From: an uncultured Verrucomicrobiota bacterium
GTDB lineage: Bacteria; Verrucomicrobiota; Verrucomicrobiia; Limisphaerales; UBA9464
Length of the DNA stretch: 64,000 bases
Assembly (NCBI GenBank): GCA_903922605.1
Contig: CAIXUG010000001.1
Span: 62,001-126,000, forward strand
Direction: 5' to 3'
A program made the position numbers and the translations under genes. Positions 3,919 to 63,856 of the stretch are shown piece after piece; the first letter of the stretch is position 1; each line of letters opens with the position of its first letter. The notes under the pieces were generated by a model that worked only from the letters and a program-made list of their open reading frames with translations, ran no database searches and was not told where the DNA came from.

Positions 3919-4000
3919 ACTCTTAATCCTAATCTTAATCTTGTTCGTAATCGCGGAAAGCCAAGGGATTACGATCAAGATTAAGATTAGGATTAAGAGT
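3919..4000. repeat. Hexamer-built hairpin (solo copy of S23-type element arms)
   Basis: Inverted repeat with 34-nt arms, 3919-3952 and 3967-4000, matching at 33 of 34 positions around a 14-nt loop. The arms are made of hexamer units of the form TCYTAA (TCTTAA, TCCTAA, TCTTAA), and each C/T variation in one arm is matched in the other. It fills the gap between gatA and the downstream membrane-protein gene, beginning eight bases after the gatA stop. Composition is strikingly AT-rich against the GC-rich surroundings. Its arms share the same unit as the arms that flank the S23 gene at 16073-16555. Confidence 0.85.
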
Positions 4001-6138: not shown

Positions 6139-6210
6139 GTTGTGCCGTGAGCGTGCCGGGAATTTCGGCCGGTGCCAATTTGAATCCGGTCCCTGACAGC
6201 AGAGGGGCTT

Positions 6211-6290
6211 GATGAACAACCAAGGAACGAGGAAACAAAGACTGATTCCTCAGGGGAAATCTTGGTTCCTTCGTTCCTTTGTTGTTCATC
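6211..6290. repeat. Hairpin of short repeated units between divergent genes
   Basis: Arms 6211-6240 and 6261-6290 are inverted copies matching at 26 of 30 positions, with a 20-nt loop that contains a small inner stem. Repeated units are GTTCCT and GTTGTTC-like. It has the architecture of the other hexamer hairpins in this window (3919, 32750, 63756) but different unit sequence. It lies in the gap between HPr and the pseudouridine synthase, which are divergent, and adds spurious in-frame codons to both open frames. Confidence 0.75.
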
Positions 6291-6298
6291 ATCCGGCC

Positions 6299-13631: not shown

Positions 13632-13695
13632 TCGGTTGCCAGCGCCGGTCGCACGCGCCATGTTCGGCAGCGTTCGCCGAAAATCTTTTCGCCGT

Positions 13696-16062
13696 ATGAA
13701 CCGCTTTCTTGTCTCGGCCGCCTTCTCGCTGCTCGCATTTTCTCCCTCCTTCGCCGCCACCGGCTGGCTCACCTGGCGTGGACCCGCAGGAACCTCGGTT
13801 TCCACGGAAACGGGCCTGCCATCCAAACCGGACGCCAAGGCACCGCTTTGGAGCGTGGATTTTCCCGGCCAGAGCACACCCGTCATCGCGGACGGAAAGC
13901 TCTTCATCAACGGCTATGTCGGCGACGGGCCGGACTTGCAGGAGTTCACCGCCTGCTTTGACGCGGAAACCGGCAAGGAACTGTGGCGGCACGGCGAGAA
14001 CGACTTCCTGAGCGACACGGTTTATTCCCGCTACGCCACTTCCAGCCCGACCGTCGATGCCGAAACCGGCAATGTTTACGCGCTCCACACGCAGGGGCTG
14101 CTCTCGGCCTTCAGCGCCGACGGCAAGCTGCTGTGGCAGCACTCGATGATGGAGGAGTTTGGCCGGCTTACCTTTCCCAACTCACGCACGGCCACGCCGG
14201 TCGTGGACCATGAACTGGTCATCACACGCGGCGTCACCAGCTCGTGGGGTGCGCACGGCCCGGCCGGCGACCGCTTCTACGCGTTCGACAAGAAGACGGG
14301 CGCGCTCGTCTGGTCCAGCGCGCCCGGTGACCGGCCGCAGGACAACACCTTCTCGCAGCCTTGGCTGGACATGTGGGGCGGCAAGCGCGTGCTCTACAGC
14401 GCCGGCGGCGACTCGACCGTGCTGGCCATCAACGCCCGCACCGGCGAGCCGCTCTGGCGCTTTCCGTTCGCCAAGGCGGGTGCGAAGGGCGGCATCAATG
14501 CCGCGCTGATCCGCTATCACGACAGCCTCATCGCGCTGCACGAGTCGGAAAATCTCGACTCCTCCGAGATCGGCCGCATGGCCTCGTTCCGCATTCCGAA
14601 GCCGGAGGAAATTCACCCGACCAACTCGACCACACCGCACGTGCTGGACGGCAAGACCCTGGAGCAGTGGCGCAACGGCGTTGGCTCGCTGGCCAGTTCA
14701 CCCGTGCTGGTGGGTGACACCATCTACGAGGTCAACGGCACCGGTGAGCTGTGTGCGGTGGAAGCCATGACCGGCAAGATTCTGTGGAAAAAGAAGGTCG
14801 GCATCGAGCAGCGCCAGAGCACGCCATTCTACGCGGATGGCCTGCTGTACGTAGGCATGTATGTGACGATGAAGGACGCCAGCAACGCCACCTCCGCCGA
14901 TGCGGACAGCGTGGCCAACGGCGACCTCGTGGTGCTCAAGCCCGGTGCCGACAGCGTGGAGGAAGTCGGCCGTACCCAGGTGACGGGCCGCGTGTTTGGC
15001 TCGCCCATCGGCTACAACGGCAAGCTGTACCTGCAGACCGACAAGAAGCTCTACGCCTTCGGCAAAGCAGGGAACAACCCCGGCCTCAAGCCCGTTCCGA
15101 TGGCCGCCGACTGGCCCGCTCCGGGGCCGGCCAAGCAGCTACAGATCATCCCCTACGAATTGCTGCTTCGCCCCGGCCAAGCCCAATCCTTCCACGTGCG
15201 CACGCTGGATGCCAACGGATTCACGGTCCAGGAGGAGGTCGATCCGAAGACGCTCCATTGGGAGTCGTTCATTCCGCCCACCGCGCTGGTGAAGGCGACC
15301 ATGAAGGGCACCTTCAACCCCGACGGCCAGCTCGTGGCAGACAAGGTGCCGGTGGGCAGCGGCGGCCAGTTCAAGGCCACCCTCAAGCTCGCCGACGGGA
15401 CCGAGGTCACCGGCTACATCAAGGGTCGCGTACTGCCGGGCATCCCACTGAAGCAGAATTTCGAGACGTTCGCCGTGACGAATCTCACGACGAACACCGC
15501 TGAGCCGCCCACGCTGTTTGCCTATCCGCCGCTGCCGTGGAACTCGGCGCGCTTCCGCTTCGAAGTGCGGGTCAAGGACCCCACCGGCGGCACCAATCAG
15601 GCATTGGTTAAAACGATCGACAACCGGCTCTTCCAGCGCGGACAGGTCTTCTTCGGCTTCCCGGACATGACGAATTACACCGTCGAGGCCGACGTGCTGA
15701 GCGAAGGGAACAAACGCAAGATGTCCGAGGTCGGCCTGATCAACCAGCGCTACGCCATCATCCTCAAAGGCAACGCCCAGCAGCTCGAAGTGAACTCCAA
15801 CCAGGAGCGCGTTAAAGCCGCCGTCCAGTTCAAGTGGGTGCCCGAGACATGGTACCACCTCAAAACGCGCGTGGATATCGCGGCCGACGGTTCCGGCATC
15901 GTGCGCGCCAAGGCGTGGAAGAAGGGTGATCCCGAACCCGAGGCCTGGACCATTGAGGTGCCGCACAAACATGCCCATTCGCACGGATCGCCGGGACTTT
16001 ATGGCTTCTCCCCGCAGGACATGCGGGTGGCGATCGACAACATCAGCGTGACGGCGAACTGA
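13696..16062 (+). CDS. Secreted PQQ-like beta-propeller protein with C-terminal jelly-roll-like domain
   Basis: 788-residue exported protein. The start at 13696 gives a signal peptide (MNRFLVSAAFSLLAFSPSFA), after which the mature chain begins with the typical GWLTWRGPAGTSV of PQQ-like propellers. Repeats such as FTACFDAETGKELWRHGEN, STVLAINARTGEPLWRFPF and LCAVEAMTGKILWKKKV form the propeller (about residues 25-480). A linker with an Ig-like segment follows, then a domain (about 600-788) with YTVEADVLSE and WYHLKTRVDI of the LamG/DUF1080 type, often sugar- or ligand-binding. Function unknown; the family includes quinoprotein-like and BamB-like scaffolds but no dehydrogenase signature was seen. 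A paralog lies just beyond the S23 element. Confidence 0.85.
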   Translation: MNRFLVSAAFSLLAFSPSFAATGWLTWRGPAGTSVSTETGLPSKPDAKAPLWSVDFPGQSTPVIADGKLFINGYVGDGPDLQEFTACFDAETGKELWRHGENDFLSDTVYSRYATSSPTVDAETGNVYALHTQGLLSAFSADGKLLWQHSMMEEFGRLTFPNSRTATPVVDHELVITRGVTSSWGAHGPAGDRFYAFDKKTGALVWSSAPGDRPQDNTFSQPWLDMWGGKRVLYSAGGDSTVLAINARTGEPLWRFPFAKAGAKGGINAALIRYHDSLIALHESENLDSSEIGRMASFRIPKPEEIHPTNSTTPHVLDGKTLEQWRNGVGSLASSPVLVGDTIYEVNGTGELCAVEAMTGKILWKKKVGIEQRQSTPFYADGLLYVGMYVTMKDASNATSADADSVANGDLVVLKPGADSVEEVGRTQVTGRVFGSPIGYNGKLYLQTDKKLYAFGKAGNNPGLKPVPMAADWPAPGPAKQLQIIPYELLLRPGQAQSFHVRTLDANGFTVQEEVDPKTLHWESFIPPTALVKATMKGTFNPDGQLVADKVPVGSGGQFKATLKLADGTEVTGYIKGRVLPGIPLKQNFETFAVTNLTTNTAEPPTLFAYPPLPWNSARFRFEVRVKDPTGGTNQALVKTIDNRLFQRGQVFFGFPDMTNYTVEADVLSEGNKRKMSEVGLINQRYAIILKGNAQQLEVNSNQERVKAAVQFKWVPETWYHLKTRVDIAADGSGIVRAKAWKKGDPEPEAWTIEVPHKHAHSHGSPGLYGFSPQDMRVAIDNISVTAN

Positions 16063-16072
16063 GCCCGATTGG

Positions 16073-16555
16073 TTCTTAATCTTAATCCTAATCTTAATCT
16101 TAATCCCGTGTCCGCCCGCTTCGACCACGAAAGGCTGAACGTTTACCAGCGTTCACTCTCGTTCGTCGCTTGGGTATCCGGGATTTTGGAAAAGATCCCG
16201 GCGAAGCTTTCGGCGCATGCACAGCTGGACCGCGCCGCCACTTCCATCCCGCTAAATATCGCCGAGGGCAACGGTCGTCACACTTCGGTGGACCGTTGCC
16301 GTTTCTTCGACATCGTCCGGGGATCCGCATTGGAGTGTGCGGCCGCGTTGGATGTCCTGGTGGCTAGGAAGATTTTAACCGAGACGGATTCCGAGCCCGG
16401 CAAGCTGGCGTTGGTTGAGATTGTCTCGATGCTGGTGGGCTTAATTAGGAGCAATTCGGAGTCGCGGATGCATGAGGATGTCATCCCCTACCGGGTGAAT
16501 GTGGCGTGATTTAAATCGGACAGATTAAGATTATGATTAAGATCAAGATTATGAA
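16073..16555 (+). mobile_element. S23-encoding element with hexamer-built inverted arms (IVS-like)
   Basis: Left arm 16073-16105 and right arm 16523-16555 are inverted repeats matching at 29 of 33 positions, each built from TCYTAA/TTARGA hexamers. Between them lies a single complete S23-family gene that begins three bases after the left arm and ends 13 bp before the right arm. The element is inserted between two paralogous PQQ-propeller genes; its right arm overlaps the region just upstream of the second gene and supplies an in-frame MIKIKI leader. The layout copies that of intervening sequences in bacterial 23S rRNA genes, but this location is not in an rRNA gene. Confidence 0.75.
16108..16509 (+). 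CDS. Four-helix-bundle protein of the S23 family
   Basis: 133-residue protein of the S23 ribosomal/four-helix-bundle family, encoded in intervening sequences of 23S rRNA genes and also free in genomes; related folds include the Avd accessory protein of diversity-generating retroelements. Conserved features are the N-terminal FDHERLNVYQRSLSFV, the central DRAATSIPLNIAEGNGR and the following helix SALECAAALDVLV. GTG at 16108 is the chosen start because the upstream in-frame part translates the repeat arm into Leu/Asn repeats. No ribosome binding site is visible. The molecular role is unknown; nucleic-acid binding by a basic pentameric bundle is known only for relatives. No reverse transcriptase is nearby. 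Confidence 0.92.
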   Translation: MSARFDHERLNVYQRSLSFVAWVSGILEKIPAKLSAHAQLDRAATSIPLNIAEGNGRHTSVDRCRFFDIVRGSALECAAALDVLVARKILTETDSEPGKLALVEIVSMLVGLIRSNSESRMHEDVIPYRVNVA

Positions 16556-18203
16556 TGGGGCAGCGGCGACCCTGGCGGTGATGGTGGCTTGCGCCGCATC
16601 GGCCGAAGACTGGCCCCAATGGGGCGGCAACGACCCGGGCCGCAATTTCTATTCCCCCGCCACGGGCCTGCCCGACAAGTTCGAGCCGGGCAAGCTGAAG
16701 TCGGGCACCGAGGAGATCGACATTGCCACGACCAAGAATGTGAAGTGGGCCGTGAAGCTCGGCTCGCAGAGCTACGGCAACCCCGTCGTCGCCGGCGGCC
16801 ACGTTTACGTCGGCACCAACAATGAGTCGCCCCGGGACAAGAAGCATACCGGCGACCGCAGCTGCCTCTACTGCTTTGACGAGAAGACCGGCACGTTCCT
16901 CTGGCAGCTCGTCGTGCCCAAGCTGAAGTCCGGCAAGGTGAACGACTGGGAAAACCTTGGCCTGCTCGCTTCGCCGCTGGTCGTCGGCAACCGCCTGTAT
17001 GTCGTCACCAGCCGCTGCGAGGTGCTCTGCCTCGACACCGAGGGCATGGCCAATGGCAACGACGGCCCCTATACGGATGAGGCCAAGTACTTCGTGCTCG
17101 ACGCCGGCAAGCCGCCGATCGAGCCCGGCAAGACCGACGCCGACATCATCTGGCGCTACGACATGATGGATGAGCTGGGCGTGTTCCCGCACAACGCCTC
17201 AAACTGCTCCGTCATCATGGTGGATGGCATCCTCTACGTCTGCACCTCCAACGGGCAGGACTGGACGCACGTGAACATCCCCTCCCCCACTTCCCCGAGC
17301 TTCATCGCTCTGGATCCGAAGACCGGCAAGCTGCTCGCCGAGGATAACGCCGGCATCGGGCCGCGCATTTTCCATGGCCAATGGACCTCGCCCTCGACCG
17401 CGAAAGTGAATGGCAAGCAGCTCGTGTTCTTCGGTGGCGGCGACGGCGTGCTTTACGCCTTCGACGCCAAGCCGCAGAAGGGCGACGGCTCGAAGATCAT
17501 CCCGGTGCTGCCCGGCGCGGTGCTCGACCGCGACGAGGACAAGGACACCGACTACATTAAGAAAGTTTTCTGGGCCGACCTGAATCCGCCCGAGTACAAG
17601 ACCGACAAGACCGGCAAGCCCTACAAGTATCCGGCCGCCGAAGGCCCGAGCGAAATCAACGCCACGCCGGTCTTCTACAAGAACCGCATTTACGTGGCCA
17701 CCGGCCAGGACCCCGAGCACGGCGAGGGCGTCGGCCACCTGGTCTGCCTCGACGCGACCAAGACGGGTGACATCACCAAGAGCGGTGTCATCTGGGATTA
17801 CAAGGGCATCCACCGCTCCATCTCCAGCGTGAGCATCGACCCGGCGACCGGGCTGCTGTTCATCGGTGATTTTTCCGGGTTCGTGCACTGCCTCGACGCC
17901 GAGACCGGCAAGCTGAACTGGACCTACGACATGAAGGCCCACATGTGGGGCTCCACGATGGTCGCGGACGGCAAGGTGTACGTCGGTGACGAGGACGGCG
18001 ACTTCGTGGTGCTCGCCGCCAAGGGCGGCAGCAAGGCGGAGGTCCTCAGCGAGACCAACCTCGGCGCGCCGGTTTACAGCACCGCCGTCATCGCCAACGG
18101 CACGATGTATGTCGCCAGCCAGACCCATCTCTTCGCCGTCGGGGCGAATGCCAAGCCGGTGGCCGGCGACGCTCCGAAAAAGGACGAAGTTCAGGTCAAG
18201 TGA
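16551..18203 (+). CDS. Secreted PQQ-like beta-propeller protein
   Basis: 550-residue exported propeller protein. The start at 16551 gives MNGAAATLAVMVACAASA as signal peptide, then EDWPQWGGNDPGRNF, a typical beginning of PVC-group PQQ-like proteins. An ATG at 16533 lies inside the S23 element arm and would add six residues (MIKIKI). Propeller blades include VVAGGHVYVGTNNE, SCLYCFDEKTGTFLWQLV, VVGNRLYVVTSRCEVLCLDTEG, FVHCLDAETGKLNWTYDM and VADGKVYVGDEDGDFVVLA. Several conserved cysteines (C-LYC-F, CEVLC) may form disulfides. Not a clear dehydrogenase. Downstream, 65 bp away, begins a sensor kinase in the same orientation. Confidence 0.85.
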   Translation: MNGAAATLAVMVACAASAEDWPQWGGNDPGRNFYSPATGLPDKFEPGKLKSGTEEIDIATTKNVKWAVKLGSQSYGNPVVAGGHVYVGTNNESPRDKKHTGDRSCLYCFDEKTGTFLWQLVVPKLKSGKVNDWENLGLLASPLVVGNRLYVVTSRCEVLCLDTEGMANGNDGPYTDEAKYFVLDAGKPPIEPGKTDADIIWRYDMMDELGVFPHNASNCSVIMVDGILYVCTSNGQDWTHVNIPSPTSPSFIALDPKTGKLLAEDNAGIGPRIFHGQWTSPSTAKVNGKQLVFFGGGDGVLYAFDAKPQKGDGSKIIPVLPGAVLDRDEDKDTDYIKKVFWADLNPPEYKTDKTGKPYKYPAAEGPSEINATPVFYKNRIYVATGQDPEHGEGVGHLVCLDATKTGDITKSGVIWDYKGIHRSISSVSIDPATGLLFIGDFSGFVHCLDAETGKLNWTYDMKAHMWGSTMVADGKVYVGDEDGDFVVLAAKGGSKAEVLSETNLGAPVYSTAVIANGTMYVASQTHLFAVGANAKPVAGDAPKKDEVQVK

Positions 18204-26704: not shown

Positions 26705-26868
26705 GTAGGGATGGCGCGCCGCGCCGTCCGTGGTAGGCCGGGCTGCCAGCCCGCTGAAAAATCAGGGACTCACGAAAGAAATCGACGGGCTGGCAGCCCG
26801 TCTTACCGTGTCGGGCCAGCGGCCCAACCTACTCGGCGACGGGGAGCGGCGCAGCGCGCCGGCCCTAC
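26705..26868. repeat. Nested palindromic repeats
   Basis: An outer element starts GTAGGGATGGCGCGCC and ends GCGCGCCGGCCCTAC, related to the ends of the repeat at 60312-60438. Nested inside (26732-26807) is another inverted repeat, GGTAGGCCGGGCTGCCAGCC against its mate ending CCCGTCTTACC. The arrangement suggests insertion of one palindromic element into another. It lies between the prepilin and PaaK-like genes. Confidence 0.65.
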
Positions 26869-32736: not shown

Positions 32737-32749
32737 GATTGTTCCCTTC

Positions 32750-32843
32750 CTGCTCCTGCTCATGCTCTTACTCTTGCTCCTCCGTTAACAAGGCGATGGG
32801 TGATGGGAAACGGAGCAAGAACGAGAGTAAGAGCAGGAGCAAG
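32750..32843. repeat. Hexamer-built hairpin, NTGCTC type
   Basis: Left arm 32750-32786 consists of units CTGCTC, CTGCTC, ATGCTC, TTACTC, TTGCTC; right arm 32809-32843 carries the reverse complement with a shift of one unit (GGAGCAAGA ... GAGTAAGAGCAGGAG). The loop is about 22 nt. The unit differs from the NTAATC of the other copies only in its two middle bases. It lies between convergent genes (the small membrane protein and priA) and could act as a shared 3' structure. Confidence 0.8.
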
Positions 32844-32862
32844 ATTCTAAGTGCGACCACCA

Positions 32863-44558: not shown

Positions 44559-44949
44559 ATGGTTTAGTTTGTTTCCGTGTGTGCAGTGACCGTGCCGAAA
44601 GACTAGGGCATACGTCAACAGTTTTTTTCTGTCCAACGAGCTCTGCCGTTACAGACATAGCGGATTCTGGTCCGTTGTCTTTAGGAAAGTGGCCCGTTCG
44701 CCCATTTTTAACTTTTCCCCGTGAAATCGCCGATTCCAACCGCCGCCGGCCAATCCTGATCCGAAGCTGACTAGGTATCCGAACCCTTTGAAATCATCCT
44801 AAGATCCTTTCAATCATCTAGTTACGATCTGTTTCAACGGGAGCGGCGGGTGATCCGATAAGCCGTTCTTTCAGGAAGAGTTTTGCGAAGCAGGCTGGTA
44901 GGGTCTGATTTTCCAGGAGCGAGGCAGCAGGTTCCGGGTACCCACAAAA
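44559..44949. other. Intergenic region, nothing recognised
   Basis: About 390 bp upstream of the secreted-protein gene. It should hold that gene's promoter, but no clear -35/-10 or sigma-54 site could be picked out with confidence. Open frames are short and unconvincing. Confidence 0.4.
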
Positions 44950-45051
44950 GTAGGACGGGCGGCCCGCCCGGCTTCCAAATCTTTGCCTGTCTGGCCGGCA
45001 GGTCGCTGACGCAGAAGATAAAACAGAACACGGGCGCGCCGCCCGTCCTAC
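44950..45051. repeat. Palindromic repeat overlapping the Rsm22-like stop codon
   Basis: GTAGGACGGGCGGC (44950-44963) and GCCGCCCGTCCTAC (45038-45051) are perfect 14-bp inverted ends of a 102-bp element. Its right end supplies the TAG stop of the Rsm22-like gene on the minus strand. Confidence 0.8.
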
Positions 45052-46064
45052 TTGGACGGTGGCCAGCGCGTGCCGGCATGGGCACGTGCATTTTCGGTAT
45101 GCCAGTGAAACAGCGGAACCGCCTCCGAATCTTCCGCCAGATCGGCGAACAGCTCCGGCAAGTCCCGTTTTTGCAGCATCAGCTCCCGGACGGAGGTGCT
45201 GGAGCAGTCGTAGAGCTTCAAATAACCCTTGTAGAGGCGCGGTACGCCGAGCATTCGGGAGATCCCCGGAGGCAGGGGCGGGCAGTCGGGTGAACCCGGC
45301 TTGCGCTCCAGCACGAGGAAACTGTAGGGCAGGCTGCGGAGATCGATGCCCGCGCGCCGGGCAAAACGGGTCCAGCCGGAATCCGCGAAGATGGCCGGCG
45401 GGGGTGGGGCGAAATTATGGCACCAATGCCGTTCGTTGCCGGGAGCCAGCAGCCCGCACGCCTCGCAGTGGGTGCAGGGGGCCACGACCACAAACTGCTC
45501 CCGCAACGCTTCCCGGACGGCAATGAGTTCCCGGCTGTCGGCATGCGTCCCCGGCTCCACCCAGATCACGGCCTGGGCGCGCCGGGCCAGTCCCAGCAGC
45601 TGCCGGCGCTGATTGTCCGGCAGCTCGTTCAGCACATGGCTGACCACCAGCGTGCCGGGTGATTCTAGAGTGGCCAGTTCGGCACGCGCCAGACGGGCGG
45701 CGGCCAAGTTGGGGAACTCTTCCCGGGCGCGGGACAGGGCGAATTCCTCGGCCAAGGCCGACCGGTCATGCACCAGCAGTTTCGTAAACCGCTCCGTGCC
45801 AAAGGTCTCGATCACCCGCCGGCCCGCGACGCCGCTGCCACAACCAAAGTCGAGCACCGGCCCTTGGGGCGGCTGCCAGCCACGGAGCCGCAGCTCGCGC
45901 AGCACGGCATCCCATTTCCAACCGATGCGCTCGCCAAACGTCACATCGTAATTGGCCAGATCGCTCCGCGAACGCCAGTAGGCGCCCGCGCCGGCCGACT
46001 TTCCCTGAAGGAAGGTTTCCCGGAGCCGGTCCAGCGCCGCCCAATCCAACGTGTCGGGGTCCAT
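45048..46064 (-). CDS. Rsm22-like ribosomal small-subunit methyltransferase family protein
   Basis: 338-residue SAM-dependent methyltransferase-fold protein resembling the Rsm22 family associated with small-subunit ribosome maturation. Motif I is PVLDFGCGSGVAG, and SHVLNELPDNQRRQLL and VIWVEPGTHADS follow. The cysteine cluster CTHCEACGLLAPGNERHWCHNF matches the metal-binding (possibly Fe-S) region of Rsm22. The ATG at 46064 is chosen, just after the stop of the upstream methyltransferase; a TTG overlapping that stop is an alternative. The last codon and stop lie in a repeat element, so the C-terminus may be slightly altered. Confidence 0.82.
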   Translation of the reverse strand: MDPDTLDWAALDRLRETFLQGKSAGAGAYWRSRSDLANYDVTFGERIGWKWDAVLRELRLRGWQPPQGPVLDFGCGSGVAGRRVIETFGTERFTKLLVHDRSALAEEFALSRAREEFPNLAAARLARAELATLESPGTLVVSHVLNELPDNQRRQLLGLARRAQAVIWVEPGTHADSRELIAVREALREQFVVVAPCTHCEACGLLAPGNERHWCHNFAPPPPAIFADSGWTRFARRAGIDLRSLPYSFLVLERKPGSPDCPPLPPGISRMLGVPRLYKGYLKLYDCSSTSVRELMLQKRDLPELFADLAEDSEAVPLFHWHTENARAHAGTRWPPSK

Positions 46065-63755: not shown

Positions 63756-63856
63756 TTCATAATCGTAATCCTAATCCTAATCTTCCTCTTCCCCTTTAAC
63801 GCTACGCCTTCACGGCGAAGATGAAGATTACGATTATGAAGAAGATTAAGAGGAAA
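63756..63856. repeat. Hexamer-built hairpin, NTAATC type
   Basis: The left arm (63756-63794) has units ATAATC, GTAATC, CTAATC, CTAATC, TTCCTC. The outer 15 bp TTCATAATCGTAATC pair perfectly with GATTACGATTATGAA (63826-63840); beyond, a second GAAGATTAAGAGG stretch continues the theme to 63856. The loop contains CCTTCACGG. It lies between the ATP-grasp gene start and the end of the next upstream gene. Confidence 0.7.

Follow-up and report, generated by a model that had tools for sequence, protein, structure and literature searches.

The window analysed here, a stretch of 64,000 nucleotides from an uncultured Verrucomicrobiota bacterium, carries a short gene of the S23 (23S_rRNA_IVP) family enclosed by two facing arrays of a hexamer, which reads 5'-GATTAN-3' on the right arm and as its complement on the left arm (Table 1). 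The arms, 33 nt each and separated by 417 nt, pair at 29 of 33 positions (88% complementary), and the GTG start codon lies three bases past the left arm. The initial annotation had described a single S23 gene between 33-bp arms of which 29 positions pair, and the profile matches and arm coordinates confirm it: the product matches Pfam 23S_rRNA_IVP (PF05635) at 3.8e-21, with 75.7 bits for a curated cut-off of 33.8, and TIGR02436, 'four helix bundle protein', at 2.9e-20, with 72.5 bits for a cut-off of 24. The complementarity score of the flanks is 26, while the maximum among 60 dinucleotide shuffles is 15. The hexamer is strongly constrained at all but its last position; in 559 units from stretches of the genomes G000 and G003, the commonest base at positions 1–5 has a frequency of 0.88–0.99, and position 6 is nearly free (A 0.43, C 0.22, G 0.19, T 0.15).

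Table 1. Position of the S23 unit, its neighbours and the solo hairpins in the window.
Feature	Position	Strand	Remarks
Upstream neighbour	13636..16062	+	PQQ/BamB-like beta-propeller gene; site marker, outside the unit
Left arm	16073..16105	-	facing array of five GATTAN hexamers (TTAATC on the + strand)
S23 gene	16108..16509	+	S23 / 23S_rRNA_IVP four-helix-bundle gene, GTG start, 133 aa
Right arm	16523..16555	+	facing array of five hexamers (GATTAN, one GATCAA)
Downstream neighbour	16533..18203	+	PQQ/BamB-like beta-propeller gene; site marker, outside the unit
Solo hairpin	3919..4000	.	GATTAN, 14-nt loop; other sequence at that site in the sister G003
Solo hairpin	32748..32844	.	GAGCAN units; GATTAN hairpin at the same site in G003
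Solo hairpin	63757..63851	.	GATTAN; site occupied in G003, stem changed

The list of open reading frames and the profile search revealed only the S23 gene between the arms, and no transposase, nuclease or reverse transcriptase was seen inside the unit. The window contains no rRNA match, and the unit is therefore not inside 23S or 16S rRNA. It lies between two collinear beta-propeller genes, in agreement with the earlier description of two paralogous neighbours. The downstream frame, listed from its first ATG (16533), starts within the right arm, of which positions 16533–16555 provide possible ATG starts and N-terminal codons (MIKIKIM...) for this gene. As RNA, the unit has a predicted folding energy of -202.4 kcal/mol (shuffles -173 +/- 6.5, z = -4.48) with the arms as the closing stem, as expected if the transcript closes as a stem around the gene. 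The predicted model of the S23 protein (11-row alignment, mean pLDDT 70.7) has its best structure matches in the S23 crystals 2gsc and 2rld, of five chains each, consistent with the four-helix-bundle fold; the next best are structures of DGR Avd (4dwl, 8ub7).

The window site and the gene-less hairpins in related genomes

We compared the site between the beta-propeller genes in eight genomes of the window genus, the initial annotation having proposed a search for empty sites. S23 with GATTAN arms is present in G000, G003, G001 and G006. G005 has S23 with degenerate arms and no match to the array pattern genome-wide, G002 has one array without S23, G007 has no insert, and G004 has a two-gene insert (L098 883-1447) whose second gene is PemK/MazF-like. 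S23 is found at the site in five genomes of this genus and also in four genomes of another genus (G024, G025, G030 and G032), with hexamer-like arms of shifted sequence in three of them and weak arms in G024. Since the site is occupied in two genera and empty or altered in some relatives, the window copy is, on this sequence comparison, an old, fixed resident that was lost in some relatives, and no recent arrival. No end duplication was recognised at the window copy in the comparison with relatives, and none can be defined there because the intergenic sequences of the relatives differ too much. The layout at this site differs in G001 (L057 1249-1938), where an array of 16 units borders the S23 unit on one side and an additional complete hairpin borders it on the opposite side.

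The abundance of the word was followed in the same genomes with the pattern GAKYAN. It has 159 matches in G000, 123 in G003, 43 in G001 and 6 in G006 (54% complete), all with GATTAN-armed S23; 20 in G002, where S23 is missing beside the left-over array; and 0 and 2 in G004 and G007, which have neither S23 nor array at the site. With one mismatch allowed, a GATTAN-like pattern matches 111 + 83 times genome-wide versus 5 + 1 times for the reversed control, and solo GATTAN hairpins do occur in the window as had been claimed (Table 1). In regions of G000 and G003 picked for holding arrays, we read 64 array clusters, which comprise 50 facing pairs, 14 single arrays and no back-to-back pair. Five units make up 71 of 111 arrays, and the commonest loop of the facing pairs is 14 nt (16/50). 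Besides the S23 unit, no facing arrays stand 120–2500 bases apart in the G000 stretches; one such pair was found in G003 and shows no S23 similarity.

Flanks common to G000 and G003 were recognised at 15 of 37 G000 loci and 15 of 27 G003 loci, lower bounds since the flanks were matched among the fetched array regions only. At some of these 15 shared sites a single array was detected, and on the compared contigs one hairpin is found in G000 only and one in G003 only. The solo stems at 11 shared sites total 380 pairs, of which 246 are unchanged, 87 broken, 26 changed on one side and 6 on both, and 15 have gaps. Strong compensatory evolution of the stems was rejected on these figures: with 6 double changes for 87 broken pairs, the hairpins are kept and pair-by-pair compensation is weak. 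The window also contains, at 6210-6291, a solo hairpin of a 7-8-nt CTTCGTT-like word, which adds another word class to this genome and is also present in G003 (C49 61269-61350). Two GC-rich palindromes ending in CCTAC (26732-26807 and 44948-45053) resemble GTAG-type REP elements in appearance.

Complementary flanks of S23 genes and their arm words

Whether arms accompany S23 genes elsewhere was a point raised by the initial annotation. Among the best matches returned, a non-random sample in which related genomes are not independent, flanks complementary with a score of at least 14 were found at 27 of 30 loci of the hexamer subfamily (19 of the 30 from other families of the order), at 34 of 38 other S23 genes of related genomes, and at 81 of 93 S23 loci on plasmids and in named genomes that represent many phyla, versus 8 of 326 windows shifted by 600–800 bases. 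The loci below the threshold number 3/30 (L110, L115 and L176), 4/38 and 12/93. The median period-6 score of the hexamer subfamily is 20 of 24, and the 38 other genes mostly have 7-8-nt words, such as TCTCCTG, CGAAAAC, ACTGGCTC and GATCTCC. The named loci belong to Verrucomicrobia, Bacteroidales, Desulfobacterales, Gammaproteobacteria, Lentisphaeria, Nitrospirota and others. They derive from a scan of named contigs with a heptamer-class S23, in which 289 loci were confirmed, 80 kept and 79 used (one being too short), and from plasmids, for the most part cyanobacterial, of which 14 of the 21 S23-bearing records were read; five of the 93 (L228, L229, L231, L240 and L241) duplicate loci among the 38. 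No relative was found in viral contigs scanned with one heptamer-class S23. A gammaproteobacterial order, reached from one Wenzhouxiangella contig and assigned as an order by inference, has S23 in 115 of 299 genomes; complementary flanks occur there at 27 of 30 returned loci and at 18 of 20 further loci hand-picked from the listed places (45/50), with a higher control rate of 19/112.

The arms are usually periodic. At least 75% periodicity is reached by 87 arms, with period 7 in 73 and period 8 in 13, and arm length peaks at four to five heptamers or five to six hexamers. The periodicity medians are 0.72 and 0.76 versus 0.54 in shifted windows (control 95th percentile 0.71); periodicity alone discriminates less well than complementarity, only 12% of the S23 loci exceeding the controls' 99th percentile. 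Most of the S23 frames listed are open, with no internal stop. The idea that only one S23 subfamily has arms came from a detector tuned to GATTA, which recognised arms at one of eight S23 genes of G000. It was ruled out by a word-free complementarity test, in which the intended controls turned out mostly to have 7-8-nt arms, and for this reason shifted windows were taken as controls. Among the S23 loci read, genes enclosed by mutually complementary flanks, usually tandem copies of a 6-8-nt word, are the wider rule. The hexamer, which had been proposed as the word of the unit, is so in the window as GATTAN, but it is one version only, most other S23 units read having heptamers. The papers listed in searches of the open-access literature included none on array-enclosed S23 genes outside rRNA. 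On cyanobacterial plasmids, S23 lies inside CRISPR operons at three loci (L216, L218 and L225): cas6 and cas4 flank it in both Anabaena sp. 90 and Pseudanabaena galeata, while in Picosynechococcus 7003 its neighbours are cas10 and a gene of the Cmr3 family.

We then related the arm word to the S23 protein at 63 loci of the Verrucomicrobia set, words being counted as shared at a cosine > 0.3. Arm words are common to 48% of 301 pairs of similar S23 genes taken from different genomes and sites, compared with 0.1% of 1369 pairs of dissimilar S23 and 2% of 50 dissimilar pairs within one genome; the observed correlation was reached in 0 of 1000 label permutations. The similar pairs nearly all belong to the hexamer subfamily, so that the test is strong in setting hexamers apart from all others but tells little about those other subfamilies, where the one informative pair does not share its word. 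As judged from these pairs, hexamer arms track the S23 subfamily and not the host genome. In the order, represented by 320 genomes, 40 of the 57 genomes with hexamer-subfamily S23 contain hexamer arrays of both orientations, versus 44 of the 263 without (Fisher p 7e-15, uncorrected for relatedness). Arrays without detected hexamer-subfamily S23 occur in 44 genomes and S23 without hexamer arrays in 17, the S23 absences being soft because at most 13 first-look candidates were scored per genome.

For heptamers, a CTT pattern has matches in 15 of 16 genomes of the named loci, with the reversed control commoner in nine. Solo heptamer arrays include the word of the genome's own S23 arms in 5/7 listed genomes and do not in 2/7: both have CTTTNGN in Desulfospira, and CTTAAAA/CTTAACA in Desulfatitalea and three Bacteroidales, the Bacteroidales having other words too. 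The arms of XCC0516, the Xanthomonas S23 (2gsc), were approached through relatives up to 66/99 identical. Among these XCC0516-like loci (56–66 of 99 residues equal), six of them from the 30 returned loci of the gammaproteobacterial order and 14 from its 20 further ones, 17 of 20 have GGGAATC or GGGATTC. The expectation that they carry the published Xanthomonas word was not retained, since the exact GGGAATC prevails in only four and its one-letter variant GGGATTC in thirteen.

Copies, deletions and end duplications outside rRNA

The genome G090 has 13 matches to a hexamer-subfamily S23 unit of about 500 bp, located at unrelated sites and in some cases cut by contig ends. Compared with one copy by BLAST, their main pieces are 87–97% identical and the homology stops at the unit ends, the arrays lying inside the copied unit. 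Three of them (L372, L373 and L374) lack the same ~158 bp within S23 at three different sites, and a deletion derivative therefore seems to have multiplied. The initial annotation had suggested that solo hairpins would be internal-deletion derivatives or ancestors of the unit; the gene-less hairpins are best read as derivatives of S23 units.

Outside the arrays, the G090 units have inverted tips (GTGCGCATCTCAGATTTTTC...), which match 67 + 78 times in G090 and 12 + 11 times in G089, with no match for the reversed control. Of 24 tip pairs among the listed places, 17 span 226–352 bp and four about 490–540 bp. Perfect direct repeats of 8-10 bp were found at the ends in 5 of 16 entries (15 distinct elements, L366 and L383 being one element entered twice; the right end of L370 is misplaced), whereas 2 of 240 swapped-end controls have direct repeats scoring at least 7. 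The five elements are a full-length S23 unit (L362), the S23-deleted L372 and three others of 226–348 bp. Two further entries score 6 and one scores 5, and in nine of the 16 the score stays below 6. Inverted tips with target-site duplication occur in elements of G090, and the duplications that the initial annotation had suggested looking for are found there, whereas none was recognised around the S23 unit of the window.

The outermost ~20 bp of the G090 units are also the tips of a multi-copy IS-like element in G089, where they bound two different insides that are broken off at contig ends; no complete transposon with these tips was found assembled, and no transposase gene was readable in G089. 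G136 has five copies, L375 among them, that are 86–92% identical to L375, as well as a sixth copy with a different hexamer and 71% identity; the G090/G089 tip was not seen at their ends. In G106, an S23 unit (L166) is flanked by ~30-bp direct repeats (TTCATCACAGGCGCATCTCGCGTTTTTCGC) resembling the G090 tip. The G090 copies at unrelated sites, their shared deletion and the end duplications demonstrate that S23 units with arrays can move and were copied to new sites in G090. The view of the unit as resembling an rRNA intervening sequence (IVS) that moves outside rRNA is borne out by these copies. As to independent insertion, the units were copied, though perhaps not by themselves: the tips in G090 match an IS-like repeat in G089.

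Interpretation and relation to known systems

We consider it probable that these units are minimal mobile S23 elements with clade-specific arms and gene-less hairpin derivatives, served by an enzyme acting in trans, and that the window copy is a fixed one. In each element a single S23 gene is enclosed by the two arms of a long stem, and these arms are facing arrays of a 6-8-nt word, often in about five copies. Since the arm word goes with the S23 clade, the S23 protein may bind its own arms, as RNA or as a single-stranded DNA hairpin, and selection would maintain this pairing of S23 with its arms. Solo hairpins built from that word would be derivatives that spread through the genome in dependence on S23, in the manner of REPINs accompanied by a RAYT gene. 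For one genome, G090, insertion with a duplication of ~9 bases is documented. The strand-transfer enzyme there would be an IS enzyme, probably supplied in trans, because the G090 tips match the IS-like repeat of its sister genome G089. The pentamer and the about five units per array suggest that one S23 subunit could correspond to each word. In the RNA, the stem might moreover let the unit be processed without harm, by analogy with rRNA IVSs.

A broader reading, which we hold tentatively and rate at somewhat less than an even chance, is that S23 and its facing arrays constitute an unrecognised two-part class of mobile DNA, in which a homopentamer would read an array of about five words of its own clade, the known heptamers and hexamers would largely be derivatives, and rRNA IVSs would be a domesticated landing site. 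It is made less likely by the XCC0516-like arms, most of which are one letter off the published GGGAATC. If true, the class would span many bacterial phyla and would largely explain the repeats described decades ago in cyanobacteria, Xanthomonas and others. We know of no established role for S23/four-helix-bundle genes or for short tandem repeats, both common in bacteria; the link between S23 and arrays would give them one testable origin and connect rRNA IVSs to them. It would define a mobile system that joins a short repeated word to one small protein with no catalytic domain known, and, as word and protein can be swapped between clades, the function of S23 is directly testable by binding.

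The mobility of the units might instead be owed entirely to ordinary IS transposases, with S23 units as MITE-like cargo, the arrays as internal sequence and S23 as a neutral or cost-reducing passenger. The tips shared with a multi-copy IS-like element and the ~9 bp end duplications in G090, of a size typical of some IS enzymes, argue for this, but the G136 copies end without the tip, most of the S23 loci read have facing arrays, whose presence follows the S23 subfamily, and most listed S23 frames have no internal stop; we regard this account as rather unlikely. Part of the case for a passenger comes from Coxiella, of which the report, in the part used here, states that S23p is probably not made in vivo (PMC4990558). 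The same Coxiella IVS, with heptamers before S23p (PMC4990558), is a precedent for a different proposal, namely that the stem is an RNA processing device cut by RNase III, whose harmless excision, instead of mobility, is conserved. Such rRNA IVSs are known, the arms form the closing stem of the predicted fold and the window unit stands between collinear genes; this proposal nevertheless leaves the new-site copies with end duplications and the solo hairpins unexplained, and we find it unlikely as a full account, although processing could coexist with mobile elements by limiting their harm.

Two further accounts give the arrays to the host. It is improbable that they are short tandem repeats produced by slippage and folding-back, with S23 inserting into pre-existing hairpin loops: the 37 S23-less array regions of G000 for one S23 unit of the GATTAN word, and the 44 array-bearing genomes in which no hexamer-subfamily S23 was detected, would fit, but the arm words follow the S23 subfamily across genomes and sites, the G090 arrays are part of the ~500-bp copied unit, and free slippage would give neither the five-unit peak nor pairs that always face each other. 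That host-maintained bidirectional terminators or regulatory hairpins are involved we consider very improbable, for even though hairpins are kept at the 15 sites common to G000 and G003, no T-run is visible past the arms in three window stretches read, presence differs between sister species and the link with S23 is left unexplained.

The mobile elements that we favour share with rRNA IVSs the protein family, the format of a 0.4-0.5 kb selfish unit and ends that pair as a long stem around S23, as where Leptospira has an rRNA IVS with an S23 gene. The Coxiella IVS is described as a selfish element processed by RNase III, with tandem heptamers (GACAGAT) just upstream of the S23p gene (PMC4990558, in part). 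Unlike rRNA IVSs, the window unit is outside rRNA and has facing tandem arrays on both sides; some relatives contain several copies of S23 units, and the word also forms hairpins that enclose no gene. Avd of DGRs works with RNA and the reverse transcriptase as a pentamer, and the predicted S23 model appears similar to it in fold, whereas neither a reverse transcriptase nor a template repeat was seen between the arms. The short gene-less G090 copies resemble MITEs in their inverted tips and end duplications; unlike MITEs, S23 units carry a gene, mostly as an open frame, and no common tip beyond the arrays was noticed at the other loci read.

Short repeats were reportedly described in the STRR work of 1990. 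Published heptamers, of the same length as S23-arm words and dispersed in intergenic DNA, include GGGAATC and GGGGA(T/C)T in Xanthomonas and Nostoc and TAACTGA in Beggiatoaceae and cyanobacteria (PMC4692102, PMC4679880). GGGAATC forms 70-75 convergent pairs per Xanthomonas genome (PMC4692102). The portions of these reports drawn on here discuss slippage, G-quadruplexes or regulation (PMC4692102, PMC4679880), state of TAACTGA that 'no mechanism is evident' (PMC4679880), and returned no mention of S23 or four-helix proteins in a term search of the text of both.

In REPIN-RAYT systems, as far as the cited part of the report describes them, a gene is tied to repeats of which many gene-less inverted pairs (hairpins) lie elsewhere (PMC3116915). 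The S23 elements likewise associate a gene with repeats, and many gene-less inverted pairs are dispersed in the window genome. S23, however, is a four-helix bundle and no tyrosine transposase, it is the only gene between the arms, and its repeat consists of 6-8-nt words in tandem instead of a single palindrome. With these differences, REPINs would be, by analogy, the nearest working counterpart of the S23 elements.
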